A DNA stretch of 64,000 nt from Candidatus Gastranaerophilales bacterium (GTDB lineage Bacteria; Cyanobacteriota; Vampirovibrionia; Gastranaerophilales; Gastranaerophilaceae). Positions within the stretch are counted from its first letter, which is position 1. Each line of letters begins with the position of its first letter. The position numbers and the translations under genes are program-made. The notes beneath the pieces are model-generated. The model saw only the letters and a list, made by a program, of their open reading frames with translations. It made no database searches and was not told where the DNA came from. The DNA lies in contig CALUYE010000001.1 of NCBI GenBank assembly GCA_944324945.1, forward strand, positions 1 to 64,000, in the 5' to 3' direction. Shown one piece after another: positions 45,995-62,235 of this stretch.

Positions 45995-46070
45995 GGGGGT
46001 TTAGCTCAGCTGGTAGAGCATCTGCTTTGCACGCAGAGGGTCAGGAGTTCGAATCTCCTAACCTCCACCA
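45995..46070 (+). tRNA. tRNA-Ala (anticodon TGC), integration site
   Basis: Complete 76-base cloverleaf including encoded CCA: acceptor GGGGGTT/AACCTCC, D-arm TAGCTCAGCTGGTAGAGC, anticodon loop TTTGCAC, T-arm AGGAGTTCGAATCTCCT. Its 3' end is repeated at 57467-57493, so it serves as the attachment site of the element to the right and remains intact after insertion. Confidence 0.96.
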
Positions 46071-46071
46071 T
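46045..46071 (+). repeat. attL: 27-bp direct repeat within the tRNA-Ala 3' end
   Basis: Begins GAGTTCGAATCTCC and ends ACCTCCACCAT; identical to 57467-57493. The repeat covers the T-arm and acceptor 3' strand. Confidence 0.9.
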
Positions 46072-46100
46072 AAAAAAGAGCCTTTCAAAGGCTCTTTTTT
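46072..46100 (+). terminator. Terminator after tRNA-Ala
   Basis: AAAAAAGAGCCTTT paired with AAAGGCTCTTTTTT directly follows the CCA end. Confidence 0.85.
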
Positions 46101-46507
46101 AATGCTTTTTTGGCATATTTTCAAAACACAAAAATAAGGTAAAATAAGTATAAAAGGGACCAAAAGGGGACTGCTTAAAAAATTTCTTTATTTTAAAGGG
46201 TTTCTGAAATCAAACAAAATTAAAGATTACACAATACTTTTTGCGGTAAATGCAGTCAATCCCAAATAACACATAAATTTCAGGATTACCACCTGCAATA
46301 ATTGCGCTCAATGCCAATGTTTATATAAATATTGGTCTATTTTACTATGCCAAATTTTTAAAATCGAAAACAATATTAATAAATTACACAATTTTGCAAT
46401 CCCAAAACCCGCTTGCACCAATCGAAGTCAAGAATTTGGGAGCACGTTTTTATAAAACAGTTTATTATAAATTTGCGTAATTTAAAAAATAAAAAAGGAG
46501 CAAATTT
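46101..46507. other. Left end of the element, non-coding
   Basis: About 400 bases without a credible gene. Contains two GGGAC direct repeats (46156-46160 and 46167-46171) 11 bases apart, matching similar repeats near the right end, so this is probably the left recombinase-binding arm. An AAAAGGAG site at its end serves the gene at 46508. Confidence 0.5.
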
Positions 46508-46882
46508 ATGGAAAAATTAGCAATAGCTTTAGTGATTTTCATTTTTATTTTTGGTCTTATTGAAGAAGCAAAAAATCGGTTAAACGGTTACAACGACAAT
46601 GATGATTACTATGAAGAAGATAATTATGATGACAACGACAATTGGAATAATAATTATTCTTATAATCAGCAAACTTACAACAGTCCACAATTTGACAATA
46701 GCTTTATTTCTCGAACTCAACCACCTGAATATCATCATAAAGATACTAATGAATACAAGATGTTGGTGCGAGTCAAGGGAAGTAAATATGCAAGACAGGA
46801 AGAAATTACCATAGAAGCACACAACATATCTGAAGCTCGACAAAAGGCTAAAAATATGGGTTACGACATTATTAGAAGTTAG
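46508..46882 (+). CDS. Membrane-anchored Asp/Asn/Tyr-rich small protein
   Basis: 124 residues. N-terminal membrane helix (KLAIALVIFIFIFGLI), a middle dominated by D, N and Y, and a C-terminal about 45-residue globular part (VKGSKYARQEEITIEAHNIS). RBS AAAGGAG. Seven bases before the DnaB-like gene, so co-transcribed. No known family. Confidence 0.65.
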   Translation: MEKLAIALVIFIFIFGLIEEAKNRLNGYNDNDDYYEEDNYDDNDNWNNNYSYNQQTYNSPQFDNSFISRTQPPEYHHKDTNEYKMLVRVKGSKYARQEEITIEAHNISEARQKAKNMGYDIIRS

Positions 46883-46889
46883 GAAAAAT

Positions 46890-47576
46890 ATGAACAAAGA
46901 AGAATTAAACAAAATCTTAAAATATTTTATAAAAGGTTCATTAATTACAATAGGTGGTCGCCCTGCTATGGGCAAAAGAATATTTGCGCTGAATTTAGTT
47001 GAATTATTTTGTAAAGAAGGGCATAAATGCCTATATATAACAGATTACAATAGACAAATAATTGTAAAAATGTTATTAAAAATTGCTGCAAACCTAAATG
47101 ACAACGATAGTTTAAAGGTGCAAACAGAAAAATTCTCACAAGCAACAAAAGAACTAAACAATTGGAATTTAGTTATTAAATCTACAGAATTTTGCAGAAT
47201 AAAAGACATTAAACAAATAATACAGAAATACAAACCTGATTATTTATTTATCAATATGCACATTAACAGCAAAAATATGTTAAGTTCTGAAAAATTGAGA
47301 GAAATATTAAAGTATAATAATTTAATAATTTTTAAACTGGTAAATACTCGCAAGGAACCACACAACACAACAAACTATTATCCAAAAATTATGGATTTAC
47401 AAGATAAAAATCTTCCAAGATACTCAGATGCAGTCTTATTACTCTATCGTGAAGATTATTATAATTGTGATATTTCAGGTGATAGAAAAAATATTATTGA
47501 AATAATTCAGGTAAAACCTGAAAATAATTTAATCAAATTAAAATTTAACAGAAAAACTGGAAAAATCGGAATATAA
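46890..47576 (+). CDS. DnaB/RecA-like ATPase domain protein with degenerate Walker A
   Basis: 228 residues matching the C-terminal helicase domain of DnaB in layout: SLITIGGRPAMGKRIFALNL, LYITDYNRQI in the usual loop, SDAVLLLYREDYYN and a C-terminal IIQVKPENNLIKLKFNRKTG. The Walker A Thr/Ser after GK is Arg (GRPAMGKR), and the Walker B Asp is not obvious (DYLFINM). It lacks the DnaB N-terminal domain. Probably non-hydrolysing; it could be a replication decoy, loader or interference protein. Role inferred. Confidence 0.72.
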   Translation: MNKEELNKILKYFIKGSLITIGGRPAMGKRIFALNLVELFCKEGHKCLYITDYNRQIIVKMLLKIAANLNDNDSLKVQTEKFSQATKELNNWNLVIKSTEFCRIKDIKQIIQKYKPDYLFINMHINSKNMLSSEKLREILKYNNLIIFKLVNTRKEPHNTTNYYPKIMDLQDKNLPRYSDAVLLLYREDYYNCDISGDRKNIIEIIQVKPENNLIKLKFNRKTGKIGI

Positions 47577-47616
47577 AAAATCACAAATTTAAAGGCTCCA
47601 TAAAGAGCCTTTAAAT

Positions 47617-48360
47617 TTATTCTGTCTTCCAATCAATTATATCAACATTGTTTGCCCGTAAAAAATTATTACATTCTTCAAAAGGTTTAAAATTGTCATC
47701 CTTAAAGGCTGAAATCTCGCCATTGCAGATAGTTTTTTCACAAGCCTGATGATTATTTGACGGATGAGAAGAACGCAAAATTTTAATAAATGGATATTTT
47801 TCTTGAAAATCTACTTCCTGTTTATTTCCTTTATAAGCTAAAACTTCTATTTCGTTTGCTTTTTTACCCCACAACATAACTACTAAAGGTTGTTTGTTTT
47901 CAATCTTAGTTTCAAGAAGTTTAGATATTACTTGATTTGTAAAATTACGCCAAGCATTTATATGAAAGTCTTTATTATCAGGCGCAAAGGTTAAAGCAGC
48001 GTTTAGCAACAAAACACCCTGATTTTTCCAAGCTGACAAATTTGAATAAGTGTTTTTAATTTCTGTTTCATCTTCAATTTTGCGAAAGATATTTGACAAT
48101 GAATCCCTTGTAGGAATTTCACCGCTATTATAAGAAAATGCAAGTCCATGAGCTTTTGTCTCATCAGGGTAGGGGTCTTGTCCGAGAATCAAAACTTTAA
48201 CATCTTGAGGTTTTAATCTCTCAAATGCGTTAAATATATCGCTTTGTTTTGGTCTTATACATTCACTGATACATTGTTGAATATCTAATGTAAATAGCTT
48301 TTCTAGCTCTTGTTTTGTAAACCATTCATTTTTAATTAAAACTTCTTTAAGAGCTTCCAT
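47617..48360 (-). CDS. ung: Uracil-DNA glycosylase (family 1)
   Basis: 247 residues. Catalytic motif VLILGQDPYPDETKAHGLAF (catalytic Asp kept; GQDPYP for the usual GQDPYH), LLLNAALTFAPDN, VVMLWGKKA, and the second His in LRSSHPSNNH. Removes uracil from DNA. It points left within the element, opposite to most genes. It may be mobile cargo or recruited from a host genome. Confidence 0.9.
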   Translation of the reverse strand: MEALKEVLIKNEWFTKQELEKLFTLDIQQCISECIRPKQSDIFNAFERLKPQDVKVLILGQDPYPDETKAHGLAFSYNSGEIPTRDSLSNIFRKIEDETEIKNTYSNLSAWKNQGVLLLNAALTFAPDNKDFHINAWRNFTNQVISKLLETKIENKQPLVVMLWGKKANEIEVLAYKGNKQEVDFQEKYPFIKILRSSHPSNNHQACEKTICNGEISAFKDDNFKPFEECNNFLRANNVDIIDWKTE

Positions 48361-48526
48361 AATTTCCCTTTCTTCCGTTTAGAACTTATAGGCTTAAAAC
48401 AAGCATATATTATTACTTGCATATACATCTTAACGCATCACAGTAGTAAAAGCAAGCCTATTTGCAAACTTTCGTGGTCTGTATGTGAATGGTGAAATCA
48501 CATATTATTAATCAAAAGAGGGTTCA

Positions 48527-48850
48527 ATGGAAAATAATCTGGAAATAAAAAAATTATTAGGTCAACGAATTAAGGAATTACGAACAAAAAGAGGGTTCAC
48601 ACAAGAACAACTAACAGAAAAACTCAATATAGGGCAAAGAACACTGTCAAAAATTGAAAGAGGTAACTCCTTTGTTTCAGCAGAAACCCTAGCTAAATTG
48701 TTGACCGCTCTTGATATTAAAATTGACGAACTGTTTAATTTCGGATACTTACAAGAAAAAGAACTCTTAAAAGAAGAATTAATCAACGCAATTCGCGATG
48801 AAAAAGTTGATGTTGAAACATTATATCGCATTTATAAATCATTGAAATAA
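48527..48850 (+). CDS. XRE/Cro-C1-family transcriptional regulator
   Basis: 107 residues. N-terminal HTH: LGQRIKELRTKRGFTQEQLTE, then KIERGNSFVSAETLAKLLTAL; a helical tail follows. Likely element repressor or control gene, upstream of the excisionase-like gene and divergent from ung. Confidence 0.88.
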   Translation: MENNLEIKKLLGQRIKELRTKRGFTQEQLTEKLNIGQRTLSKIERGNSFVSAETLAKLLTALDIKIDELFNFGYLQEKELLKEELINAIRDEKVDVETLYRIYKSLK

Positions 48851-48965
48851 CAGAAAATATTTATAGCAATAAATTTTTACAAAACTTGACAATTATGCAA
48901 ATTTTCATTTTCAAACTACCTTAGCCCTGAATAGTTTCCTTTTTAAGTGTCAATACTCTTCCCGT

Positions 48966-48977
48966 AAACCCTTGTTA
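48966..48977 (+). repeat. 12-mer AAACCCTTGTTA, copy 1
   Basis: Same 12 bases recur at 50951-50962; both copies lie in gaps upstream of replication genes. Confidence 0.45.
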
Positions 48978-49054
48978 TGACTTATTTTGGGGTCTATTAA
49001 TTTTTAAATTATGAGTTATTCTAGACATGTAATAATTTAAAGTGAGGTATTGAA

Positions 49055-49288
49055 ATGAGCACAGAGAAAATTCCAGTCCTTAAAACAATAAAAGAAACTT
49101 CAGTAATTGTTGGGCTAGCGCGCTATCACTTAAGACAACTTGTAAAACAAAATAAAATCAAATTTGTAATGGCGGGCAAAAAGTGTCTAATCAACTTAGA
49201 CAGCTTAATTGATTACTTAAATAAAGGCGAAGTTAAAACAGAAACAGCAAAACAAAACGAAACTGTAAACAAAATAGAAAGGTGGTAG
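49055..49288 (+). CDS. Excisionase/AlpA-like HTH protein
   Basis: 77 residues. Winged-HTH of the MerR/Xis type: KTIKETSVIVGLARYHLRQL, then KFVMAGKKCLINLDSLIDYL. Such proteins direct excision with an integrase or act as activators. The next gene's GTG starts 5 bases after its stop. Confidence 0.8.
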   Translation: MSTEKIPVLKTIKETSVIVGLARYHLRQLVKQNKIKFVMAGKKCLINLDSLIDYLNKGEVKTETAKQNETVNKIERW

Positions 49289-49292
49289 TATA

Positions 49293-50903
49293 GTGGAAAA
49301 ATTTGATATTACGGCAAGTTTTGATGAAATTTTTGGCGAAACTACACCAGAATACAATAGCGAATCTGCTACAGTCATAGCAAGAATGCAGGAGCTCTTT
49401 CCGGAATTATTTGACATTGATTGCAATTATAATGATGAAATAAATTGCAACACAAGCAAAATTACCAATACCCCTAAGCTCATCGAACAGACAGTTCAAA
49501 CAATAAAAAAACGTTATCCAGGAGTCACAACCGCATATATAAAAAATGTGATTAACGCCATGGTAAGTCAATATACAACAATGAAACGCATAAAATACAT
49601 CGAAGCTAATAATTGCGATTCTGCCTACCCCAACTATTACGCTATTAACTTTATGCCGTCTGGAGCAGGCAAAGATAGGGTTTTGAAAGATTTAAAAAAA
49701 TTTTTCTATTGCTATCTTGAAAAAGAATTCAACTTTGATGTTGAAACATATCTACGTAACCGAATACAAAAAATAGAAAAAGAAGCAAAAGAAAAATACC
49801 CAAATAACGAACAGGAAAAACAGAGAAATTCTTACATAAACACAAAGGAAATAGACATAGATAAACCAACGCTAGAAACTTCTGACGGCACGCGAGAAGG
49901 AGTATACCGCGACGCAAAAGCTCTTAAAGAAGCTGGATTTGGAAGTTTAACAATTGTACATTCGGAATTTGGTCAATTATTAAACAATCCAACACATGAG
50001 CAGGAACAATTTTTAAAATTATTGTTTTCAGGTTATGACGGCAAAATTACATCTAAGAGCATTAAAGGCGAAAAAAAGAAAGAAGATATAACAGACATCC
50101 CCGTTAACCTCCTTGTTCATTCAGACCCTACCTTATTTTGTAGCGATTTAAAACAAACTTTCAATAGTATGCTTGAATCAGGTGTGTGTCGTCGCTCCTC
50201 AATAACATTTGCAGATAAAATTGAGTCTTACGAAATGCAGCAAGACCCCAAAAAAGCCTTAGAAGAACAAAGGCAGTATTTTAGAAATTTAGCTATTCTT
50301 GGCTATAAACTATTTATGGTGCTTGAAAAGGTAAAATTTGGAGCACAGTTCAAAATGACAAACGAGGCTTTTGAAAAAGTTTTGTATCCTTATATGTTAG
50401 AACTAAAAGCCCTTATGGATAAAGAAGAAAATTCTTTGATAAAAAAAGAAATTATGTCGAGAGAGTTTAAGGCTATAAAATTATCTTGTAACTATGCCTG
50501 CATTAATCACCCGAATGAACATTTTATAAATACCGAAGATATGAATATGGCTATTTCCAATATCGAGGAACTTAGCAAAGATTTTTACAAATTTATAAGC
50601 TATGCACCAAAATATGAAGATAAATATGATAGAGGCTTTAGATTTTTCCTTGAACACGAGGGTATAAGCTTTAAAAAATCAGAGCTTATTACAGATTATC
50701 GCCAACACTTTGGAATTTCGAGGGAAAAATTTAAAAATTGTTTTGATGAATACATGAAAGTTGTAAAAAGCATTGCAGTTTCAAAAGGATATTTGCTAAA
50801 TGAAATATTAATTAATCACAACTCAGGCAGCAAATTTACACTAATCCCTCTAAAAAAACAAAAATTAAGCGACTTTGTAACCCCGCTAGAGGATTTACTT
50901 TAA
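49293..50903 (+). CDS. P-loop replication protein (DUF3987-like)
   Basis: 536 residues from a GTG start with AAAGGTGG upstream. Walker A-like INFMPSGAGKDRVLKD (about 119-134), later VNLLVHSDPTLFCSDL, and a polar C-terminal half. Resembles DUF3987/helicase-like proteins of phages and satellites. Together with the Toprim gene it forms a probable replication module. Assignment moderate. Confidence 0.7.
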   Translation: MEKFDITASFDEIFGETTPEYNSESATVIARMQELFPELFDIDCNYNDEINCNTSKITNTPKLIEQTVQTIKKRYPGVTTAYIKNVINAMVSQYTTMKRIKYIEANNCDSAYPNYYAINFMPSGAGKDRVLKDLKKFFYCYLEKEFNFDVETYLRNRIQKIEKEAKEKYPNNEQEKQRNSYINTKEIDIDKPTLETSDGTREGVYRDAKALKEAGFGSLTIVHSEFGQLLNNPTHEQEQFLKLLFSGYDGKITSKSIKGEKKKEDITDIPVNLLVHSDPTLFCSDLKQTFNSMLESGVCRRSSITFADKIESYEMQQDPKKALEEQRQYFRNLAILGYKLFMVLEKVKFGAQFKMTNEAFEKVLYPYMLELKALMDKEENSLIKKEIMSREFKAIKLSCNYACINHPNEHFINTEDMNMAISNIEELSKDFYKFISYAPKYEDKYDRGFRFFLEHEGISFKKSELITDYRQHFGISREKFKNCFDEYMKVVKSIAVSKGYLLNEILINHNSGSKFTLIPLKKQKLSDFVTPLEDLL

Positions 50904-50950
50904 GATTAAATATCTTGCATTAACGGCTAAATCGGTCATTACCCATACAA

Positions 50951-50962
50951 AAACCCTTGTTA
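50951..50962 (+). repeat. 12-mer AAACCCTTGTTA, copy 2
   Basis: Second copy of the repeat at 48966-48977, about 40 bases before the primase gene. Confidence 0.45.
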
Positions 50963-51003
50963 ATACTGACATTGGCGGCATTTGCCGCAAAAGAAAGGAA
51001 AAA

Positions 51004-51891
51004 ATGCAAAAACTAGAATTATTAACAGCTAAATACGGGCAACCTGAAAAAAAAGTTGGAAATCAATACTATTGGCAATGCCCATATTGCAAAGAAAACG
51101 GCAAAGATAACCACAAGGATAATCTGCAATACAATTCAGTCAAAGATGTTTTAAGTTGCTTTGCCGACAAGTCTCATACCTCTAAAATTTTACAAGATTT
51201 GAAAATATGCAAAACCACAATTGGTTGCACATCGCCACTGCAAATTGATTATAAAAATTTATTCACGCCAGAAAAGCAAAATGAATATAAAACTTATTTA
51301 AAAAGATGTAATCAGGAATTACTAACAATATTTTATAATTCATTGAAAGATTTAAAAAACACCAGAGGCATTGAGCAAGAAACAGTTAAGCGGCTCAAAA
51401 TTGGAGTTGATAAAAATAAGCTCACTTGGGTTTTTCCAACTTTTGAATACACAAGCGAAAAAGACAGAAATATTATCGGCTTTGAATACAGACCATTAGA
51501 CTTTAGCAAACAAGGCTTGCATAGAGAAAAGGGGACACCCACAGGACTTGCAATGATAAATGCCTATAAACAAGAAACTGAAGCAATAGTGGTAGTTGAA
51601 GGATATTTAGACGGTTACGCTCTATGGCAACATCTTAATGAAAAAGGACAAAGTAATTACTACCATATCGTTACCCCATCAAACGGAGTGAGTGCATTGC
51701 CCAAAATTATTTCACACATAGATTTTTCAAAATATAAAAAATTCTACTTATTTATTGATAATGATGATGCAGGAAATTTTGCTGCGAGTGAAATTCTTGA
51801 ACAATATCCAATGTTTGAACGGATAATTTTAAACTGTGGCTGCAAAGACTTTAACGAACACTATTTAAAATGTATAAAAGGAAATGGTTAA
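51004..51891 (+). CDS. Zinc-finger/Toprim primase-like protein
   Basis: 295 residues. CHC2-like zinc finger (CPYCKENGKDNHKDN, then SCFADKSH) followed by a Toprim domain (IVVVEGYLDGYALW and FLFIDNDDAG-type acidic motif LFIDNDDAGNFAAS). DnaG-like primase short form. RBS AAAGGAA. Followed by the integrase. Confidence 0.85.
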   Translation: MQKLELLTAKYGQPEKKVGNQYYWQCPYCKENGKDNHKDNLQYNSVKDVLSCFADKSHTSKILQDLKICKTTIGCTSPLQIDYKNLFTPEKQNEYKTYLKRCNQELLTIFYNSLKDLKNTRGIEQETVKRLKIGVDKNKLTWVFPTFEYTSEKDRNIIGFEYRPLDFSKQGLHREKGTPTGLAMINAYKQETEAIVVVEGYLDGYALWQHLNEKGQSNYYHIVTPSNGVSALPKIISHIDFSKYKKFYLFIDNDDAGNFAASEILEQYPMFERIILNCGCKDFNEHYLKCIKGNG

Positions 51892-51975
51892 AATCATCTC
51901 CCTAATTACAAAACTAAGAAAATGAGGCTAAAAACAATAAAAAAGAAAGATAATAAAAATAAAAAAAGGCAAAAA

Positions 51976-53355
51976 ATGGCACATTATGAACAAATTTCAA
52001 AATATACATATAGATTAACGGTTTGTCAGGGCTACAATTCCAAAGGCAAAAAATTACGCAAACGAAAAACGATTAAGCTAGACGAAACATTAACACCCAA
52101 ACAGATAGAAAAAGAGCTTAATCGTCAAATGGTTATGTTTGAAAAAGCAGTTAAGGAAGGCAGATTTCTTGAAGGTGAATCTATAACTTTTGAAGAATTT
52201 ACTAAAAAATGGTTAGAAAATTATGCAGAACTTAATCTTGCTCCTGCAACAATAACATCATATAAAAACAAATTAAAAAATAGAATAATACCCGCTATTG
52301 GACATATTAAAATTGGAAAATTACAGCCTGTGCACTTACTTGATTTTTATAAAAATTTGAAAGAAAGCAATATTAGACAAGACGGATTATATTCACCTAC
52401 GAGCAAGTTAAATGAATTTTTAAACCCGCTTTCAACAAAAGAAATTGAAATTGCAACAAAAATTTCATTTAAAACTTGTAAAAAACTAAAAGAAGGAAAA
52501 AATGTAAATTATCAAACAGCAGAAAAATTATGCAAAATATACAATCTTGAAATAAATAAAATGTTTAATCAAGCCATTAAAGAATTTTTATCAGAAAAAA
52601 GCATTCAAGCCCATATTAATTTAATTGGTTCAATAATGTCAACAGCGCTTAAATGGAATATTATTTATGATAATCCAGTAAAAAGAATTGATACAAAAAA
52701 ACAAAATAAAAGAAAAGCATGCTACTACGATGATATACAAACAGCAGCCATGCTCAAGGAATTAGACTCTGAACCATTGATATTTAAAACAATAATATAC
52801 TTAGCCTTAGATACTGGAATGAGAAAAAGCGAGCTTATGGGTCTAAAATGGGAAGATATTGATTTTGAGAAATCAACTATTAATATCAACAAACAAAGAC
52901 ACTACGTACAAGGTTACGGGACCATTGAAGATAAAACAAAGACAGAAGCAGGAAACAGAACTGTAACAGTATCAAAAATAGTTATTTCACTTCTTAGAGT
53001 GTATAAATATGAACAAAATAAAAACAGGTTAAAATTGGGAACCGCTTGGATTTCAACTCCATATGTATTTGTACACGAAAACGGCAAAGCTATTAGCTCA
53101 AACCTGCCATATAAATGGTTTGTTAATTTTTTGAAAAGACACAACCTTCCAAAAATAACATTTCATCAATTGAGACATACAAACGCAAGCATATTAATTG
53201 CATCAGGCGAGGATATTGTAACTGTGAGCGGACGCCTCGGACATGCTGATAAGAATGTGACATTAAATACTTATTCGCATATGATTAGATCAAGAGAGAC
53301 ACAGGTTGCAAACAAAATGGAGGAATTTTATGAGAAAATAATTGCCTACCATTAG
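51976..53355 (+). CDS. Tyrosine recombinase/integrase
   Basis: 459 residues from the ATG at 51976, which has an AAAGG site; an ATG at 51922 would add a lysine-rich 18 residues. N-terminal arm-binding domain, core-binding domain with an inserted HTH-like stretch (ISFKTCKKLKEGKNVNYQTA), then the catalytic domain: Arg in ALDTGMRKSELMGLKWEDI, HQLRHTNASIL (H-x-x-R), GRLGHADKNVT, and the nucleophile Tyr in LNTYSHMI. Catalyses insertion at tRNA-Ala. Downstream genes converge with it. Confidence 0.93.
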   Translation: MAHYEQISKYTYRLTVCQGYNSKGKKLRKRKTIKLDETLTPKQIEKELNRQMVMFEKAVKEGRFLEGESITFEEFTKKWLENYAELNLAPATITSYKNKLKNRIIPAIGHIKIGKLQPVHLLDFYKNLKESNIRQDGLYSPTSKLNEFLNPLSTKEIEIATKISFKTCKKLKEGKNVNYQTAEKLCKIYNLEINKMFNQAIKEFLSEKSIQAHINLIGSIMSTALKWNIIYDNPVKRIDTKKQNKRKACYYDDIQTAAMLKELDSEPLIFKTIIYLALDTGMRKSELMGLKWEDIDFEKSTININKQRHYVQGYGTIEDKTKTEAGNRTVTVSKIVISLLRVYKYEQNKNRLKLGTAWISTPYVFVHENGKAISSNLPYKWFVNFLKRHNLPKITFHQLRHTNASILIASGEDIVTVSGRLGHADKNVTLNTYSHMIRSRETQVANKMEEFYEKIIAYH

Positions 53356-54065
53356 GTAAGAGTACTAATGTTTTCTATTGACTTAGTTAATTTATCAATT
53401 AATTTTTGCGAAAATTGTTTAAGATACTTTATATAATCAATAATTTCTTCTTTTGTAAAAGTAATAGAAGTGTCATTGTGCAAAATTGTATTTCGTTTGT
53501 ATGTTAGTTCATTAACTTTGGCTTTAAAATCAATATTTTCATCTTCCATACCATCAATTGTTTGGACTTTTTTAACAATAACAACTTCATCCAGAATATT
53601 TTTAAATCCAATTCTTTGAAAAAGTTCATTTATTGCCTTCTCTCCGTGTTTACCAAAATTAAATTTGTTGTTTATTTTAATTGGTTTTGCATTAATATCA
53701 CTTTTCCATAAAAGAGCCAAATCTCTCATATTTTCAGAAATAAATTTTCTCTTATCTTCTTCGTATATTTTTTTAAAACAAGTTTCAAATTTTTCAAGGA
53801 CTTCTTTTGTATGATGAATTTTAATAATTTCAGGAATAAACCCCACTGCTACATTATCATTAAGTAAGGCAGTATACTCAACAATGACATTTTCCAAAAA
53901 AGCTTCAAATTTAGAAGTTAAAAGTATTAATGCAGCCTTTAAATATATGTTGCCAATTAATCTGCATTTTACCTCTTCCTTTTTAGAGCGACGAATTAAT
54001 ACAATTACTTCCCGAAGTGCAATATGAAATTTATGCAAGCTTTCAAAATTAATAGCTACTATCAT
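53352..54065 (-). CDS. HEPN-domain protein (MAE_28990/18760-like), partner of DUF262
   Basis: 237 residues, helical. The N-terminal half YLKAALILLTSKFEAFLENV fits HEPN proteins of the RiboL-PSP/MAE type. Near the C-terminus R-N-T-I-L-H (R191, H196) matches the Rx4-6H motif of HEPN RNases. Its start overlaps the DUF262 gene by 17 bases, so they form an operon. HEPN proteins commonly cut RNA in defence or toxin systems; activity is inference. Confidence 0.78.
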   Translation of the reverse strand: MIVAINFESLHKFHIALREVIVLIRRSKKEEVKCRLIGNIYLKAALILLTSKFEAFLENVIVEYTALLNDNVAVGFIPEIIKIHHTKEVLEKFETCFKKIYEEDKRKFISENMRDLALLWKSDINAKPIKINNKFNFGKHGEKAINELFQRIGFKNILDEVVIVKKVQTIDGMEDENIDFKAKVNELTYKRNTILHNDTSITFTKEEIIDYIKYLKQFSQKLIDKLTKSIENISTLT

Positions 54066-55233
54066 TTAATATACTACCCATTTTGGTCATCCAACCTCCT
54101 AGCCTATATTTCATGCGCCTTGGTTCAGATGTACCAACAGTAATAGAATCTTCAAAATCCTTGTTTTCATTTACACAAGTTTTCAGTGCATTTAAAATTT
54201 GTTCTTTGTGCTCTATTAATTCATCTATATGATATTGCTCAAAACTAAGCATAATAAAATCGTATATTGCCTTATTTATCCACTTATAAAATTCTCCATT
54301 CGCTTCAATTCTTTTGAAGGCATTTTTGCCAAAAATAGAATAAACTTTGTCAATTGTATCATTAAATTTTTCTCTCAACTGGTTTATTTGATATTCTGTC
54401 ATATTTTTATTTTTATCCATAAAAGTATTTAAAAAAGTTTTCATGATGCCTTTATAGCCAGATATTGACATTCCTTCTTTATCAAAATTTTCAGATAAAG
54501 CAAAATACCTTAAAATTAATTCAGCATCATCCATACGCTTGTGAGGTTCAGTTAAATTTAGAATTTCTAATAATTTTTTATTATAGCGTAAATCCTTAAT
54601 TAAATCATTTAAAGAGCCTCTATAAAGACAGTTCCTTAATTCTTGTTCAGTCAGTTTTACAGAACCCCTATTTAGCCTCATAAATACATCATATTTCATT
54701 TCTGGATGAGATTCTTTTGTAATTAAAATTATACGCAGTGAGCCATTGTCCAAAATGCTTTTTGCATTAGGATTTAAACTTTCATAACTTTGTTTATTCA
54801 ACTCTTTTAGAGAATCTAGCCCTTTTAATTTGAATTTTCCTTCATAGAAATTTTTAAAACTTGTTAATCTTTGCAATCCATCAATGATATTCCAACTACC
54901 ATCATCTTCTTCGGCTACATAAATTGGAGGTATAGGAACATTCAATAATACTGATTCAATAAGCTGAGATGCAGTTTTATAATCCCATACTTGCGAGTAT
55001 CTTTGAAAATCTGGCTGAAGAAAAATGCGCCCCTTATCTATCATTCTAACAGTATCTTCTACACTTTTATCATATGCCTGGGTGCGTATCTTTCTTAATT
55101 CTTTTGGAATTTGTATTGTATCTTCGTAACCTTCACTATACTCAACAACATTATTTTCAAAAATTTCAAAATCATTATTTTTCTGTTCTGTATTTTCTAT
55201 ATTTAAATCAATATTAAAATTTTCCATGCTCAT
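54049..55233 (-). CDS. DUF262 (GmrS/ParB-like) protein
   Basis: 394 residues. The DUF262 core is clear: FLQPDFQRYSQVWDYKTASQ, NVPIPPIYVAEEDDG, and the DGLQRLTS motif (118-125; family DGQQRLT), then FMRLNRGSVKLTEQELRNC. Related to the nucleotide-hydrolysing part of GmrSD restriction; the DUF1524 nuclease part is lacking. Paired with a HEPN gene, so a two-gene defence module is likely. Confidence 0.88.
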   Translation of the reverse strand: MSMENFNIDLNIENTEQKNNDFEIFENNVVEYSEGYEDTIQIPKELRKIRTQAYDKSVEDTVRMIDKGRIFLQPDFQRYSQVWDYKTASQLIESVLLNVPIPPIYVAEEDDGSWNIIDGLQRLTSFKNFYEGKFKLKGLDSLKELNKQSYESLNPNAKSILDNGSLRIILITKESHPEMKYDVFMRLNRGSVKLTEQELRNCLYRGSLNDLIKDLRYNKKLLEILNLTEPHKRMDDAELILRYFALSENFDKEGMSISGYKGIMKTFLNTFMDKNKNMTEYQINQLREKFNDTIDKVYSIFGKNAFKRIEANGEFYKWINKAIYDFIMLSFEQYHIDELIEHKEQILNALKTCVNENKDFEDSITVGTSEPRRMKYRLGGWMTKMGSILNDSSY

Positions 55234-55359
55234 AACACTCTCATTGCAACCAATATAAAATTTTGTAGACCAATACTCTTATAAAAATTAACATATAAAT
55301 AAAATTTTGCAATATTACTTAAAAGTTGAATACAATACAAATTGACAGCGATATATAAC

Positions 55360-55380
55360 ATTTTCTGCTATAATCAAAAC
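55360..55380 (+). promoter_or_regulatory. Extended -10 promoter giving a probably leaderless transcript
   Basis: TGCTATAAT at 55366-55374 is an extended -10 ending 6 bases before the ATG at 55381, so transcription would begin at about the start codon. A TTGACA lies at 55342, but with an over-long 21-base spacer. No ribosome site precedes the ATG. Confidence 0.5.
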
Positions 55381-56949
55381 ATGAAAAATAAAAGAATATT
55401 ATTTGACACAAATATAGTTATCCAAAGAGAAGACCCTAAAGTTTTGTCTCCAGATTTCATCGAGTTAAATAAAATCATAAATGACTTAAATTATAAAATA
55501 TTTATTCATCCACTTTCTATTGCTGATATCAATAGAGATAAAAATGAAGAAAGAAAAGCTATAAGTTTATCCAAAATAGCAACCTATAGCAATATAGAAA
55601 AGTACCCTGATTATAGCCAAGATGAAGCTTTTAAATCTCAGCTTAAGACTGAATCAAAAGAAAACGACTCAATTGATAACGCATTGATTTATGCTGTCTA
55701 TAAAAATGCTGTAGATTTATTAATTACTGAAGATAAAGGAATTTTAAACAAAGCAAAAAACTTAAATTTACAAAATAAAATTTTAAATATTACAGATTCC
55801 ATAATTAAATTATCACAAGATATTTCTTTACAACAAATCCCTCTTCTTTCGTGTTTTAAAATAGATAAAGGATGGAACATTGACCTTTCTGATACCATAT
55901 TTGATAGCTTAAAGCAAGAATATTCCGATTTTTCTGATTGGTGGCAACGTTCAGTATGTAGAACACTAAGGAATGTTTATGTTTATTATTCAAGAAATGA
56001 TCCGAATAGAAATAAAATAAAAGCAATATTGATAATGAAAGAGGAAGAAAAAGAAATAATTGATTCAGAACCTCCAATAATTTTAGAAAATGTTTTAAAA
56101 ATTTGCTTATTTAAAGTTGATGTCTCTACCAGAGGGATGAAACTAGGTGAACGTCTATTAAAAATGGCATTTGAGCAAGCAACTATTAAAAACATTTCTA
56201 AACTTTATTTAACTCATTACACAACACCAAATGAAGATAAGCTTATTGAACTTATACAAACTTACGGATTTTACTTTTTAGCAAAAAAGAAAAATGGTGA
56301 AGAAGTTTATTACAAAGAAATAAAGCCCAATAAAAGCATAAAAATTACTTCAAGAGAAGAAGCTATAAATATTAATACACAATACTTTCCAAGCTTTTAC
56401 AATGGCGAACAAGTTTCAAAATATATACTTCCAATTCAACCACATTTTTTTGACCGACTTTTCCCTGATTATAAAAGACCGACACAAGAAACTTCTATCC
56501 AGTTACAATTAGATATAGGTATAAATAAGTACACAAGCGAAGGGTTTTCTATTCAAAAAGCATATATATGTAATACACCTGTTCATACAATGCAAAATGG
56601 AGATATTGTATTATTTTACAGGACCTTAGATTACATGGCAATATTAACACTAGGCGTTATAGAAAAAGTGTATTATGATATAGATGATGCAGATAGTATA
56701 TATAAAATAATCAAACGCAGGACAGTTTATTCAATAGACGAAATAAAAAAAATATGCGAAAAACGAAACAAACCTGTTATAATTTTATTTAAACATAATT
56801 TAAATTTTAAAAAAGAAGTGTCTTATGATTTTTTAAGAAAAAATGATATTATAAGAGGCTCTATAATATCTGCAAGACAAATAAAAGAAAATACCTTATA
56901 TAAAAAAATTATTCAAGGAAATATAGATGAAAGTCTTATTATCAATTAA
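55381..56949 (+). CDS. PIN-GNAT-PUA/EVE-like fusion protein
   Basis: 522 residues from the ATG at 55381. PIN-like nuclease domain (about 5-140): ILFDTNIVI with D9, DNALIYAVYKNA with D99, and LLITEDKGIL with D118. GNAT acetyltransferase-like domain (about 190-313; STRGMKLGERLLKMAFEQA). PUA/EVE-like domain (about 385-510; MQNGDIVLFYRTLDYMAI). The 3' end overlaps the ASCH gene by 23 bases. Nuclease plus acetyltransferase plus base-reading domain suggests RNA or modified-nucleotide targeting; activity is inference. Confidence 0.82.
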   Translation: MKNKRILFDTNIVIQREDPKVLSPDFIELNKIINDLNYKIFIHPLSIADINRDKNEERKAISLSKIATYSNIEKYPDYSQDEAFKSQLKTESKENDSIDNALIYAVYKNAVDLLITEDKGILNKAKNLNLQNKILNITDSIIKLSQDISLQQIPLLSCFKIDKGWNIDLSDTIFDSLKQEYSDFSDWWQRSVCRTLRNVYVYYSRNDPNRNKIKAILIMKEEEKEIIDSEPPIILENVLKICLFKVDVSTRGMKLGERLLKMAFEQATIKNISKLYLTHYTTPNEDKLIELIQTYGFYFLAKKKNGEEVYYKEIKPNKSIKITSREEAININTQYFPSFYNGEQVSKYILPIQPHFFDRLFPDYKRPTQETSIQLQLDIGINKYTSEGFSIQKAYICNTPVHTMQNGDIVLFYRTLDYMAILTLGVIEKVYYDIDDADSIYKIIKRRTVYSIDEIKKICEKRNKPVIILFKHNLNFKKEVSYDFLRKNDIIRGSIISARQIKENTLYKKIIQGNIDESLIIN

Positions 56950-57316
56950 GCCTAAATATGTTAAAGAAATAACCGAAGGTTCTAAATTATATGAATTTAG
57001 AAAAATCATTTTTAATAATAATATCAGCACAATTTATGTATATGAAACCGCCCCAACAAAAAAAATCGTCGGAAAGATTATAATAGATAATATTATAGAA
57101 GACAGTCCCTTAAATTTATGGCAAAAATTTAAAGATAAAAGCGGCATTACCAAGCATGAATTTTTCGAATACTTTAAAAACCGAGATAAGGGATATGCAA
57201 TCAAAATAAAAAAATATGTTAATTATAAAAAACCAATTGACCCTTACAAAACTAAACCCAACTTTATGCCTCCGCAGTCATATATATATGTAGAAAATAT
57301 TAAAAGCTTGTTATAA
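56927..57316 (+). CDS. ASCH-domain protein
   Basis: 129 residues. LLSIKPKYVKEITEGSKLYEFR is the hallmark start of ASCH (PUA-like) domains, with YVYETAPTKKIVGKI following. These bind RNA or modified nucleotides. Overlaps the preceding PIN-GNAT gene by 23 bases; a coupled pair. Possibly the antitoxin or cofactor of that protein (inference). Confidence 0.85.
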   Translation: MKVLLSIKPKYVKEITEGSKLYEFRKIIFNNNISTIYVYETAPTKKIVGKIIIDNIIEDSPLNLWQKFKDKSGITKHEFFEYFKNRDKGYAIKIKKYVNYKKPIDPYKTKPNFMPPQSYIYVENIKSLL

Positions 57317-57334
57317 ACTTGTTTAAAAATTTAT

Positions 57335-57370
57335 GGGACTAAATAAGGGACTAATTCTACAAACAGTCCC
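57335..57370 (+). promoter_or_regulatory. Right-arm GGGAC repeats near attR
   Basis: GGGAC at 57335-57339 and 57347-57351, and an inverted GTCCC at 57366-57370, mirror the pair near the left end. Candidate integrase or excisionase binding sites. Confidence 0.45.
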
Positions 57371-57466
57371 TAAAAGATATTAAAAATTACCAAAAGAAAA
57401 AGTTTTTAAATTAAATAATACTAAAGGTTACTAGATGAAATTTAAAAATACAAAATGTATTTTTTA

Positions 57467-57493
57467 GAGTTCGAATCTCCTAACCTCCACCAT
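57467..57493 (+). repeat. attR: second copy of the tRNA-Ala 3' end
   Basis: Identical to 46045-46071; no tRNA body precedes it. Confidence 0.9.
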
Positions 57494-57494
57494 T

Positions 57495-57524
57495 AAAAAA
57501 GACCGTCTTGTACGGTCTTTTTTT
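57495..57524 (+). terminator. Hairpin after attR
   Basis: AAAAAAGACCGT / ACGGTCTTTTTTT. Similar in form to the one after attL, suggesting the sequence after each att copy is the left end of an element or the original tRNA terminator. Confidence 0.75.
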
Positions 57525-57581
57525 GTTATTATTGTTATCGTGTATCAGAGATTACGAGAGAAAGTGTCGTGAGTTTGAGAT

Positions 57582-58736
57582 TTAAGTCGGAAGGCTATCT
57601 GGACAAATGGCTTGTTGCCATTCTTGATATAAATCGTTTAATTTATATCTCGCATTCGCAGGGCTTGTCGAAGGCAGTTTATAACATTGGTAGTTTTTTA
57701 ATAATTTAAGGAAATATTTTTTGAAGGCTAAATATGCTTTATTGCCGTTTAAACAGATGCATTTTATATTCGGAAATTTTTCTAATAATTCAGCAATATT
57801 GTTTGGTATTTCATTTTGAATATTGGAATCAAGGCTGCCATTCCGTTCGCAAGATTGAATAACATCCCAAAGTGCAATTTTATTTTTTAATAAAATTTGT
57901 AGTTTATTTTCATAATATAAATTTGATAAATTATCGGCATTGCAAATTTTCTCCATTATTTTCCAAAACCTGTTTTGCGGATGCGCATAATACTGTTGTT
58001 CACACAAAGATTTTACACCGGGTATAGAGCCAAGTATTAAAATCTCGGATTTTTCATTTATGCTTGGTAAAAAACTTTGACAGGTTTGTTTTACGGATGT
58101 TTTTCTTATTTTATTCTGAATATCGTTGTATATTAAATCATTTAAAACAATTCCATTTTCACTCATTTTTTTGAGCTTGAAAATTCCCGTCAAATTGTTT
58201 ATGCAAATAACTTCTCTTATTAAACGAGTTTTGTTAATTCCAAGTTCATCTGCCAATTTTTTATAATCGGAAAAATCCGGATGTTCAAGATAATAATCAA
58301 GAATGCGAGCCTGAAGTTTATTAATATAAAAGCTCTTTCCATTAAATCCAAATGTATATTCAATATTCTGAATTTCTTCTTGTGGAGTTGTTATGATGTT
58401 ATCTGTCGAGTTTCTTTTTTGATGTCTTAATCTTTTTTCTCGTCGTTTTTTTCTTATATATGATAATTTCAATGATTCAGATAAAACTTCTAAAACTGCA
58501 TTGGAATATTCACTATTTCCTATTTGGCAATCAATCATATTTAAATAATTATAAAAACATTCTGCTTTTTTGGGGTATTTTTCTAAAAAATCATTTATAA
58601 GTATATTTCCTTTAAGACTATTGCACTTTTGACAACAGACAACAATATTTCTTACTTCAGTTTGTCCATGTGAACATCTTGGAATAATATGATCATTTGT
58701 GCGCTCTTCCATTGGCATAACTTTGTTACAGTACAC
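57582..58736 (-). CDS. HNH nuclease - deoxyinosine/uracil DNA glycosylase fusion
   Basis: At least 384 residues. N-terminal HNH: MYCNKVMPMEERTNDHIIP, NIVVCCQKCNSLKGN. C-terminal glycosylase of the UDG superfamily, deoxyinosine (HDG-like) type: ILILGSIPGVKSL, QQYYAHPQNRFWKIM, IALWDVIQSCERNGSLDSNI. The frame stays open 26 codons upstream of the GTG at 58736, and that part looks coding, including the Cys of CVYC just before it. The real start is thus unclear: a non-standard start or a damaged 5' end. Confidence 0.82.
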   Translation of the reverse strand: MYCNKVMPMEERTNDHIIPRCSHGQTEVRNIVVCCQKCNSLKGNILINDFLEKYPKKAECFYNYLNMIDCQIGNSEYSNAVLEVLSESLKLSYIRKKRREKRLRHQKRNSTDNIITTPQEEIQNIEYTFGFNGKSFYINKLQARILDYYLEHPDFSDYKKLADELGINKTRLIREVICINNLTGIFKLKKMSENGIVLNDLIYNDIQNKIRKTSVKQTCQSFLPSINEKSEILILGSIPGVKSLCEQQYYAHPQNRFWKIMEKICNADNLSNLYYENKLQILLKNKIALWDVIQSCERNGSLDSNIQNEIPNNIAELLEKFPNIKCICLNGNKAYLAFKKYFLKLLKNYQCYKLPSTSPANARYKLNDLYQEWQQAICPDSLPT

Positions 58737-58881
58737 ACAAATACAACTCAGATGTCTTAATTTTTGTAAGTTAATTATACCTTCTCTATAAATGCTTGAT
58801 TTTATTGCATTATATCATAATATTAAAATAAAAAATAAAAGAGGTAAATTATGAATATTCAACATAAAATTAATAATAAAA

Positions 58882-58914
58882 AGCCTTTCTTCTAATAAAA
58901 GAAGAAAGGAGGCT
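58882..58914 (+). promoter_or_regulatory. Hairpin that pairs with the ribosome site of the gene at 58919
   Basis: AGCCTTTCTTCT can pair with AGAAGAA-(3-base bulge)-AGGCT, the second arm containing most of AAAGGAGG. The site would be hidden when folded; possible translational control. Confidence 0.45.
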
Positions 58915-58918
58915 CAAA

Positions 58919-59113
58919 ATGAGCAGAAGCAGAAAACGACCATATATTCAAGCAGCTGCGGATAAAAAGAACAAAACACGGTTCAACAGAATTATTCGTA
59001 GAACAAAAGAAGATATTGGCCAATATTGCGAATATAAAAAACATCACAATTCTTGGGATATCTGCGATTATTTAATATATGAACCGATTAATCCCAAATT
59101 TTACAGAAAGTAA
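58919..59113 (+). CDS. Small basic protein, unknown
   Basis: 64 residues, strongly basic (MSRSRKRPYIQAAADKKNK), with a hydrophilic tail. Strong AAAGGAGG site. Could bind nucleic acid. About 50 bases before the next gene, same strand. Confidence 0.65.
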   Translation: MSRSRKRPYIQAAADKKNKTRFNRIIRRTKEDIGQYCEYKKHHNSWDICDYLIYEPINPKFYRK

Positions 59114-59163
59114 TTATCAAGTCGAGGCTTAGCGTCCTGGCTTTTGTTTTTTAAGGAGGTAAT

Positions 59164-59676
59164 ATGGTATCGTCATTAAGATATACGGTTAACAAAAATT
59201 TTGGAAAAATATGCTACTTACATTATTTTAAAAGGATGATAAAAGACTATGAGTCAGGTAAATGGGATTTTGATATCAGAACAATTGTAAAAAATATAAA
59301 AGTTGATATCCCTTGCCCAAAATATATTTGTAAGCGCGGGTTTTCAAAACGATTATGTTTGACAATATTAGATGATAACCTGTTTATGAAAGAATTTGAG
59401 AGATATTTGGATGGTTATATCCGCCCAATTCAGGTATTAAGAAAAAATCTAATTTTAGCAAGGAGAATTTTTGTTTCTAAATATGGTTATTTTACAAAAT
59501 ACAATCAAGATTGTGCATTGGCTAATTATAAGTGCAAATGTTGCAAAAGCAAGCAAGAATGTGATTTGTCTAAAAAATTAAGTAAAAAAGATGACCATAT
59601 ATATAAACTTACAAGAATTGCAGAAATACTATACGGAAACTTAAATCACGGACACTGGGCAGATTTGGTTGAATAA
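59164..59676 (+). CDS. Hypothetical protein with Cys cluster
   Basis: 170 residues, basic. A C-terminal cluster YKCKCCKSKQECDLSKK looks metal-binding. AAGGAGG upstream. Co-transcribed with the small basic protein. No family recognised. Confidence 0.65.
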   Translation: MVSSLRYTVNKNFGKICYLHYFKRMIKDYESGKWDFDIRTIVKNIKVDIPCPKYICKRGFSKRLCLTILDDNLFMKEFERYLDGYIRPIQVLRKNLILARRIFVSKYGYFTKYNQDCALANYKCKCCKSKQECDLSKKLSKKDDHIYKLTRIAEILYGNLNHGHWADLVE

Positions 59677-60070
59677 TATTTGCACTTGAATGATACTAAT
59701 AAGTTTGTATGGCTTGAAATTATTATCATGCAAAGTTAAATTGCAAATGTTAAATAAATATTAAAGTCAGGAGTCCAAGCCTCCTAACCTATAAAAACAG
59801 ACTATGAACACTTTTTTTAACAAGCAATGTGTCATTATAATGCACCAGAGATTTTAAGAAAAAGTGTCGCGAGTTTGACGCTATTTAAGCCTTTAATCTC
59901 TTTAAGCTTGTATTTTGATGCAATTCAATCATTGTTATCTCATATAAACAATAATATATCGTTCTCAATGAGTTAAACATCAAGCAAACAAGCAAACTCT
60001 TTTAAATATCATTTAAAATTATTGTTAGGATAATTTATAAAATAAGCGTTTTCTATGTCAGTATCTTGTC
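59677..60070. other. Gap with degenerate tRNA-Ala fragment and flank repeat
   Basis: Non-coding. Holds the 59766-59790 fragment and the repeat at 59841-59880 that matches 57541-57580. No other feature seen. Confidence 0.5.
59766..59790 (+). repeat. Degenerate third copy of the tRNA-Ala 3' end
   Basis: GTCAGGAGTCCAAGCCTCC then TAACCT; four differences from the tRNA over 25 bases. The T-stem (AGGAG/CTCCT) is preserved. Confidence 0.65.
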
Positions 60071-60287: not shown

Positions 60288-61706
60288 TTAATACAATAAG
60301 TATTCACTGCAAGGTTTTAATTCTAATTGATTTGTTATTGTTGAATAATACAAATCATAAAAATTAAAATTTTTTTTATTATTACAATGATTTAGCATTA
60401 TTTTAATTATTTTTCGTTTATCTTCTAATGAAACCTTCCTGCCAAAAATAAGCCCCTGTAAATCTTCTATTTTATAATTGACTTTTCGATTTTCTTCCTT
60501 TTCGTATGCAGGATAAATTAAATCTTTTAAGATAATACGTTGTTCTTGTTCGTATTCCCAATTTTTAGATTTTGTGCAAATATAATCTTCTGCCTTTTTA
60601 TGGTACTCATAGTACCATTCTGAATGATTTTCGTATTTTTTTAAGCAATTACTATATCTTGTTTTATCAAAATTACATAACCAGAAATCCTCAATTATTT
60701 TTTTAGGTAAACCACCTAATGAAGCAAAAAAATTTACTTCCGGATATGTATTTGCATATTTAACTTCTAATATTTTTCGTTCACAAAAGGCTTTGTATAT
60801 TTTATTACTTTTAATATCACCACAAGCAGAATATAGGGTTAGACATTTTTTACCATTAAACTCTTTTGTTTTGTAAATTAAACAAATCCCGTTTTCTGAG
60901 TTTGCATAATTTGACCACATTGGCTCATTCTGAAAGCTATTTGTAAAACAAGCAACACAAAAATTATTATATAAAATCTTTTTAATATTTTTAATATAAA
61001 CCTTTGGGAACTCAAAATAGATTAAGTCTATATTATAAGTGTCTTTGTCTTTATATTCCTTGTTTAAATATTTTTTAGTTTGTTCCTGTTCTAATTCTAA
61101 TCTATATATTAAATTTAAAATTTCTTTTTTATCAGATTTATTTATAAGATCAATTAAATTAGAATATTCATTGCAATATTTTAACGATTCATATATTTCT
61201 TTATATTCACTATCTTTGACCCGATCAATATTTTTATCAAATTTTTTAAATTCAGCATCAATAACCAAATATGCAAATTTATGCAACTTAGTCAATATCA
61301 ATAAAATTTCATCAATTGAATACTTCTTGCAGGATTCTGCTAATTTAATTGGAACATTATATATATCTAAGCAATTAAAAAACTCATAATAAATCGATTT
61401 AAAAGTTGTTTTCATTTCCAACTTATCACTAACATCACTTGCCAAAAATACCGGTAAATAATTTGGATCAATTTTCTTTTCTCTATTCCTAAAATGTATA
61501 TCATAGTAAACACTTGATAAAACGTATAAATAGTGCTTAAAAAGACCTCGAAATGCTATTTCATCCCCTTGCCAAAATATATTCATATAATCTTCCATTT
61601 GATCGTTAAGTTCATCTGGTTTGGCAAAATATATTTCTAAATTTTCAAGTTCTTGGAAAATAAATAAATTATTTAATGAACGATAACGGTATAAATATTT
61701 AGTCAT
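60288..61706 (-). CDS. DUF2971-domain protein
   Basis: 472 residues from the ATG at 61706, with AAAAGG upstream; a longer frame begins at 61772. The DUF2971 pattern is seen at the start (YLYRYRSLNNLFIFQELENL, IYFAKPDELND) and later (VACFTNSFQNEPMWSNYANS, YEQEQRIIL). This family is common in accessory and defence loci; biochemical role unknown. Confidence 0.82.
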   Translation of the reverse strand: MTKYLYRYRSLNNLFIFQELENLEIYFAKPDELNDQMEDYMNIFWQGDEIAFRGLFKHYLYVLSSVYYDIHFRNREKKIDPNYLPVFLASDVSDKLEMKTTFKSIYYEFFNCLDIYNVPIKLAESCKKYSIDEILLILTKLHKFAYLVIDAEFKKFDKNIDRVKDSEYKEIYESLKYCNEYSNLIDLINKSDKKEILNLIYRLELEQEQTKKYLNKEYKDKDTYNIDLIYFEFPKVYIKNIKKILYNNFCVACFTNSFQNEPMWSNYANSENGICLIYKTKEFNGKKCLTLYSACGDIKSNKIYKAFCERKILEVKYANTYPEVNFFASLGGLPKKIIEDFWLCNFDKTRYSNCLKKYENHSEWYYEYHKKAEDYICTKSKNWEYEQEQRIILKDLIYPAYEKEENRKVNYKIEDLQGLIFGRKVSLEDKRKIIKIMLNHCNNKKNFNFYDLYYSTITNQLELKPCSEYLLY

Positions 61707-61744
61707 ATATATCCTTTTATTTAAATTGTAACCTAAATTAAAAA

Positions 61745-61767
61745 CAGAGGGGAGGATATCCCCTCTG
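61745..61767 (-). terminator. Terminator after the HNH gene
   Basis: CAGAGGGGA / TCCCCTCTG stem followed by TTTTTAAT on the minus strand, between the HNH and DUF2971 genes. Confidence 0.85.
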
Positions 61768-61779
61768 CCCAATCGTCAT

Positions 61780-62124
61780 TTATGTATTAAATTTCCAAGA
61801 TTGTTCTTTATGTGTATTATGTTCATCTTCTGAGCTAATAGAAGTTTTGAATTTAGGATGATCATCACCTTTGGTTCTATTATTGCACCATTGTAGTGGT
61901 TCTAAGTTACTCAAGTCATCGCTACCATCTTTTGACACAGGAAGTTTATGGTCAATTTCCCAACCCAAATTTGTATCTGAAGATGTTTTACCATAATCTT
62001 CATACTTTATCCAAGCACCAGCAAAATCTTTTCTATAAATGTTAGAATTGTATCCTGGTACTTCTTTAGCTTTTTTCCAAACTTTGAGTTTTATGTCCTC
62101 AGACCAATTTTCATTATAAAACAT
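61780..62124 (-). CDS. HNH endonuclease
   Basis: 114 residues from the ATG at 62124, which has AAAGGAG; an upstream frame to 62199 is less likely. HNH core LGWEIDHKLPVSKDGSDDL, then NLEPLQWCNNRTKGD. Small stand-alone nuclease of the type found in mobile and defence regions. Confidence 0.85.
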   Translation of the reverse strand: MFYNENWSEDIKLKVWKKAKEVPGYNSNIYRKDFAGAWIKYEDYGKTSSDTNLGWEIDHKLPVSKDGSDDLSNLEPLQWCNNRTKGDDHPKFKTSISSEDEHNTHKEQSWKFNT

Positions 62125-62235
62125 TTTAAATATCTCCTTTAATTTTGCATCACAAATTAACCACAATATCCGAAAGCAAGAAATTTGCTTTTGTGACAAT
62201 TTGTAATATAATGTATTTACAAAAAAATTTTTTAG

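Follow-up and report, generated by a model that had tools for sequence, protein, structure and literature searches.

How did tRNA-like fragments and a repeated flank come to be stacked downstream of a single tRNA-Ala gene? The question is raised by a 64,000-nucleotide stretch of a Candidatus Gastranaerophilales genome (assembly GCA_944324945.1, contig CALUYE010000001.1, positions 1 to 64,000), hereafter called the window. The initial annotation explained the pattern by several related elements that landed one after another at the same site. Same-orientation arrays behind tRNA genes in many genomes bear out stepwise accretion. The agents, however, are of two kinds, namely, small cassettes and a tyrosine-integrase element.

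An integrative element lies behind tRNA-Ala in the window

The anchor of the array is tRNA-Ala (TGC), located by ARAGORN at 45995..46070 on the forward strand; the glycosyltransferase and thioredoxin genes upstream of it are syntenic in many genomes of the genus. The region from 46071 to 57492 (forward strand; interior, 46071..57466) is an ordinary tRNA-integrated element, as recognized from Pfam matches, translation, and 26-nt exact repeats at its flanks. Its tyrosine integrase gene (51922-53355) keeps the R..HxxRH..LGH..Y motifs, and Pfam identified DnaB-like, HTH, DUF3987, and Toprim genes besides, with HEPN and GmrSD-type genes as cargo. The adjacent HEPN RiboL-PSP and GmrSD_N/DUF262 genes, at 53352-55233, are likely a pair of defence cargo. 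At 57467..57492 (forward), the final 26 nt of tRNA-Ala recur without a mismatch; this segment is the attR made by the element. A terminator-like hairpin and spacer, read from the letters at 57493..57540 (forward), lead from this tRNA tail to the first cassette, and the same layout before the left end recurs in other genomes. A sister species has three same-direction tRNA-Ala tails within 20 kb (L033/L034; G004:C8, 302752, 319609, and 321748), which are integrase-type accretion.

The repeated flank and the third tRNA-like copy belong to cassettes

The fragment at 59766-59790 reported as a tRNA-Ala copy is real; it matched the tRNA-Ala tail at 21 of 25 positions with a score of 30, compared with 20 for the best of 1,000 dinucleotide shuffles. 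Local alignment of the flank pair (57535-57587 with 59835-59889) gave a score of 47, which no shuffle reached in either of two tests (maxima, 29 and 34), and chance or AT-rich similarity was thereby ruled out. The likeness noticed between 57541-57580 and 59841-59880 was thus confirmed far above the shuffles. By comparison, the flank after the real tRNA-Ala (46071 on) aligned to the repeated flank at the level of shuffles, with scores of 16 to 21. The motif core has only two sites in the whole 1.92-Mb genome, both in the window.

The conserved blocks extend further than first reported: the left ends span 57541-57596 and 59842-59899, and the right-end block, which includes the 21/25 fragment, spans 59705-59809. 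Against the right end of a tRNA-Ala array from a different genus, the right-end block was identical at 78 of 97 positions, with a score of 94 where shuffles reached at most 29; it scored 34 against the window's own tRNA-Ala. Therefore, the third copy, proposed to be a degraded att copy, is a tRNA look-alike that forms part of a cassette's right end; it is no att site of the integrase element at tRNA-Ala. Likewise, the repeated flank is neither an element remnant nor chromosomal flank. Small mobile cassettes accumulate behind tRNAs family-wide, and the flank is their transferable left end, which is also found behind tRNA-Met, tRNA-Val, tRNA-Asp, tRNA-Arg, and tRNA-Pro.

Positions 57541 to 59809 are thus one 2.3-kb gene cassette, and 59842 begins the next one. 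The left end of cassette 1 (TGTATCAG...AGTCGGAAG; 57541..57596, forward; nhmmer, 48 bits; covariance search, E 2.7e-15) holds two repeats of about 20 nt. Inside the cassette are a gene for an HNH nuclease fused to a uracil-DNA glycosylase (57582..58736, reverse; Pfam) and two forward ORFs that translate into a small 64-aa product (58919..59113) and a 170-aa product (59164..59676), both without a Pfam family. A 66%-identical glycosylase was found by blastp among cassettes in one behind tRNA-Pro in another genus. The right end (59705..59809, forward, 105 nt; nhmmer, 66 bits; E 7.3e-19) consists of a promoter-like TTGAAA-17-TAAATT followed by the tRNA T-arm look-alike. Cassette 2 has its left end at 59842..59899 (forward; nhmmer, 44 bits; E 4.6e-13) and, by translation and Pfam, a likely cargo at 60288..62199 (reverse), made up of an HNH protein and a 494-aa ORF that matches no family. 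Down to base 79000 of the contig, this cassette or element showed no right end. A YhcG/DUF1016 nuclease gene lies at 62921-63934; its Pfam match begins at profile position 62, and its first part seems to be cut off by a stop codon near 63032.

The left end is found behind tRNA genes across the family

We first saw the left end directly behind complete tRNA-Ala genes when 28 genomes of the genus were searched. Within the genus it also follows tRNA-Met and tRNA-Val, each time past that tRNA's own terminator. An ancestral tRNA-Ala flank, hinted at by matches in two genomes of the genus, was dropped because the block also stands behind these other tRNAs. A sequence model built from eight copies found the conserved left end, TGTATCAGGGATTTTGACATAAAGTATCGCGAGTTTGACATATTTAGTCGGAAG, in 117 of 288 genomes, mostly fragmented metagenome assemblies, and in 31 of the 41 genera of the family. 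An exact-pattern search of 84,980 species genomes yielded 40 loci, all from Candidatus Gastranaerophilales or uncultured bacteria, many of them RUG isolates. Among viral contigs, the left end was present once, in a prophage contig, and the right end had no match. At 700-760 of IMG/VR 3300032167_000393 (L287), a prophage-type contig with a reverse-transcriptase-like gene, a tRNA tail remnant, a terminator, and a cassette left end at the contig edge form a window-like layout. A search of Rfam returned tRNAs plus one unrelated sRNA match and nothing else.

Eighty-seven distinct left ends had sufficient upstream sequence. Nearly half (43 of 87) lie past an intact same-strand tRNA within 320 nt, at a distance of 44 to 270 nt (tRNA-Ala, 27; Val, 7; Asp, 4; Met, 3; Arg, 1; Pro, 1), and 24 lie 9 to 121 nt past a right end. 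The other 20 have neither nearby, and about half of these show a tRNA-tail remnant and terminator by eye. One of the 87 has a tRNA nearby on the opposite strand. A recurring AATTCAAAWGTCCCMAATAAACCCC precedes several tRNA-less left ends (L174, 9780; L240, 4091, reverse; L288, 6985; L313, 4523) and is perhaps the right end of a third class. At L035, L038, and L047, a related but distinct end, TGTAAAGTGACACCAAGTTTGAGAAAAAGTGACAGGG, stands just behind tRNA-Ala and probably marks another family of tRNA-homing element.

Cassettes form same-orientation arrays and carry accessory genes

Neighbouring left ends less than 6 kb apart formed 15 pairs, all on the same strand, compared with 0.44 expected under random placement. 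Before each internal left-end copy in an array stands a second conserved block, which closes with a tRNA T-arm look-alike and by eye also reads as a sigma-70 promoter, TTGATA-17-TAAATT. The look-alike mostly mismatches the adjoining tRNA, and the outer parts of the right ends vary. The left end is transferable, occurring behind six kinds of tRNA and in same-orientation arrays with right ends. Blocks similar to the right-end block precede genes in L100 and L112.

Units from left end to right end measure 0.5 to 3.9 kb and hold one to five genes. No integrase was found in the array loci or cassettes, and most units carry no transposition gene. Named by eye, the cassette genes include an acyltransferase, a photolyase, a dihydroorotate-dehydrogenase-like enzyme, an AMP-binding enzyme, and MuF-like proteins with an HTH regulator; others are a methylguanine-DNA methyltransferase (assigned by Pfam in L328) together with a peroxiredoxin, and a uracil-DNA glycosylase (Pfam). 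The photolyase cassette is found behind tRNA-Val and in a tRNA-Asp array, and another cassette is found behind both tRNA-Ala and tRNA-Asp. Otherwise unrelated cassettes have the left end in common. Cassettes that agree fully over the 230 nt following the left end have unrelated DNA upstream of it, which shows a sharp left boundary.

A second class of composite site (L224-L234) has the right-end block, 22 nt, and the left-end block without the T-arm look-alike. These sites fold as a long hairpin and are often beside AAA_14/DUF4143 ATPase genes, which were first considered as recombinases but are cargo.

A cassette was inserted precisely outside a tRNA gene

Genomes G183 and G051 share a tRNA-Val locus, in which G051 holds one cassette more than G183, 1.38 kb long and placed between CCATGTC and TGTTTTGTATCAGGG. 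The insertion is precise and lies about 90 nt past tRNA-Val; it leaves the tRNA, the terminator, and the following cassette as they are. No target duplication was seen in this single clean filled/unfilled pair. Insertion points vary in general, and in a few cases the point falls within a resident left end or T-arm look-alike. An empty site sought through synteny of the downstream gene was dropped because this gene is not syntenic, and a second attempt to locate one found none.

Larger elements with the same left end encode a candidate mobiliser

Two larger elements from different genera begin at this left end beside tRNA-Ala and carry restriction/defence genes, then a transposase gene and an ATPase gene. 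Their homology begins 7 nt before TGTATC, with 95% identity over 230 nt, and the transposase and ATPase genes are 97% identical over 3 kb. The transposase matched Mu-transpos_C above the Pfam cut-off and rve weakly, and its only PDB match was MuA chain 4fcy (E 2.7e-7); the adjacent ATPase matched AAA_22 and TniB above the cut-offs. By these matches, the two are predicted members of the MuA/TnsB family and of the TnsC/MuB type, respectively. In the larger element whose contig continues, a third gene encodes a 265-aa protein with an integrase SAM-like domain; TniQ had no match among the proteins scanned. Parts of this element are present at tRNA-Ala in G016, a genome of the window's genus. No right end of the full-size elements was found. 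Because the same left end starts a transposase-bearing larger element, such a machine, with its Mu/Tn7-type transposase, probably moves the cassettes in trans.

In the window's own genome, tRNA-Met and tRNA-Ala(GGC) are followed by related operons, and in other genomes such operons follow tRNA-Lys and tRNA-Met; the own genome also has, behind tRNA-Ser, another MuA-like gene, which is broken by a single stop. Transposase/TniB-type operons stand just behind tRNAs at L103 (G000:C6, 1873-5195), L102 (G000:C1, 5180-10076), L108, L113, L333, L334, and L335, and several of them include a third protein derived from an integrase. At 547 to 549 aa, the longer versions of this protein read TGAS, QHNF, and LGYY where the integrase of the window reads TGMR, LRH, and LGH. 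By these letters, they would be inactivated tyrosine recombinases and a possible tRNA-aiming analogue of TnsF. Shorter versions keep only an HTH-like region and the SAM-like domain.

At L328, the same set of genes is found at a distance of 13 kb from a left end that follows tRNA-Met; the first genes after that left end are a DNA-repair cassette, and the left end that opens this cassette may not be part of the downstream transposase genes. In G020 (L032, 3900-9804), a left end directly behind tRNA-Ala is followed by the repressor, MuA, MuB, and GemA of a Mu-like prophage. That the left end is a Mu-like prophage end was rejected, as most left ends have no such genes. TniB counts correlated with left-end counts at a Spearman coefficient of 0.31, in a family that is too general and with mobile load as a confounder; the presence of TniB was uninformative as a mobiliser test, being found in 286 of 288 genomes.

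A model of cassette accretion and its alternatives

We consider it fairly probable that small recombinase-less cassettes settle 3' of tRNAs through the action in trans of a MuA/TnsB-type machine and that the integrase element came last. The enzyme is assigned by association, and mobilisation in trans would involve the transposase and ATPase together with the integrase-derived DNA-binding protein. The larger elements with the same left end would supply the predicted MuA/TnsB-family transposase and TnsC/MuB-type ATPase, and the integrase-derived protein would act as a target selector in the manner of TnsF. Such a machine may place cassettes about 60 to 160 nt past a T-arm, and the T-arm look-alike at a right end could then offer the landing site for the next cassette beyond the first. 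In the window, cassettes would have settled behind tRNA-Ala first; the integrase element would later have inserted at the 3' end of the tRNA, moving them 11.4 kb off and leaving copy two as its attR. More tentatively, the landing pad could be self-extending: cassettes that have no transposition genes would bring along a promoter and a T-arm look-alike at the right end, a catalytically dead, integrase-derived, T-arm-reading selector would treat each cassette as a new "tRNA", and the Mu/Tn7-type transposase would add the next one, giving an integron-like gene-capture array with tRNA genes as anchors. MuA/TnsB transposition should leave a 5-bp target duplication. Two observations weigh against a plain DDE model: the clean pair lacks a duplication, and the right ends do not repeat the left end in inverted form.

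The order of right end, T-arm, and left end inside the arrays also resembles that of an attP, with a P arm, a core, and a P' arm, and arm-like repeats TGACAWWWARTATC are found on either side, all pointing one way. The cassettes could hence be cis-mobilizable remnants of classical tyrosine-integrase accretion, with the crossover in the tRNA T-loop and the integrase supplied in trans; Dehalococcoides carries tandem T-loop islands with such a layout at ssrA (PMC3146451), and the layout is also known from CIMEs (PMC5704250). The lack of a target duplication in the G183/G051 pair would fit as well. However, the G051 insertion falls outside tRNA-Val rather than in the T-loop, with tRNA tail and terminator intact, which counts against a crossover inside the tRNA. 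The internal tails share nonfunctional acceptor sequences (TATACCA) across genera and tRNAs and are hence hard to explain as displaced working tRNA ends. One cassette stands behind different tRNAs and therefore cannot restore the 3' end of each. Moreover, the array loci are without integrase, and the tyrosine recombinases that nine cassette genomes share resemble XerC/XerD. We regard this origin as rather unlikely.

Far less probable is hairpin-based single-strand transposition 3' of GTTN by an IS200/IS605- or IS91-like enzyme acting in trans. It requires no target duplication, as seen in G183/G051, and it agrees with the GTTN-like letters before most left ends and with the hairpin folds of the right-end block and class 2 sites. 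A preference for tRNAs would be atypical of it, though, and in G051/G183 the letters before the left end move with the cassette. Two similar direct blocks 2.3 kb apart might simply be a local segmental duplication of the tRNA tail and flank within this genome. This is already refuted by the cross-genus comparison, since the third copy is nearer to right ends from other genera than to its own tRNA and the blocks stand behind other tRNAs in many genera.

Significance and relation to known systems

If the trans-mobilisation model is true, the cassettes would represent a gene-cassette capture system outside integrons, so far in Gastranaerophilales and rumen MAGs only, that carries DNA-repair, restriction, and other accessory genes. 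It would explain the strong variability of tRNA 3' sides in these genomes, and the left-end signature marks cassette borders to a few bases on one side. It would also be a test case for whether a DDE transposase can be directed to tRNA genes by an integrase DNA-binding domain that has lost its catalytic portion. We found no description of these arrays in the open-access literature.

CIMEs and tandem tRNA/ssrA islands of Streptococcus and Dehalococcoides (PMC5704250, PMC3146451) similarly stack integrase-less units behind one RNA gene, with repeated 3'-tail fragments. Unlike them, the units here are much smaller, recur across tRNAs and genera, and insert outside the tRNA gene. With regard to the flanking att sites of a CIME, the cassettes show T-arm repeats, but of a nonfunctional type, and have no integrase.

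Tn7-like transposons of CAST type I-D insert 30 to 33 nt past tRNA-Leu (PMC10293859, PMC8649781). Tn7-like transposons that home to tRNAs have in common with our elements the insertion just past a tRNA left intact, the defence cargo, and, in the larger elements here, a predicted TnsC-type ATPase with a TnsB/MuA-family transposase. The differences are an integrase-derived protein in place of a TniQ match among the proteins scanned, most units without a transposition gene, and no target duplication in the one pair. As to the inverted ends with repeated transposase sites of Tn7-like elements, the left end here has two repeats of about 20 nt, and the right end is not its inverse. In Tn6022, the selector TnsF of a Tn7-like transposon is an inactivated tyrosine recombinase (PMC10293859). 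Here, too, a tyrosine-recombinase-derived protein is encoded with the transposase and ATPase, but the targets are tRNAs rather than comM, and no TniQ partner was seen.

Integron cassettes differ in that the anchors here are tRNA genes. By eye, the RYYYAAC...GTTRRRY core order of attC was not seen in the sites. The integron integrase model TIGR02249 was below the cut-off in all ten proteins scanned, which were picked from matches in nine genomes. Nevertheless, like integron gene cassettes, the units described here are small, lie in arrays of one orientation, and do without a recombinase of their own.
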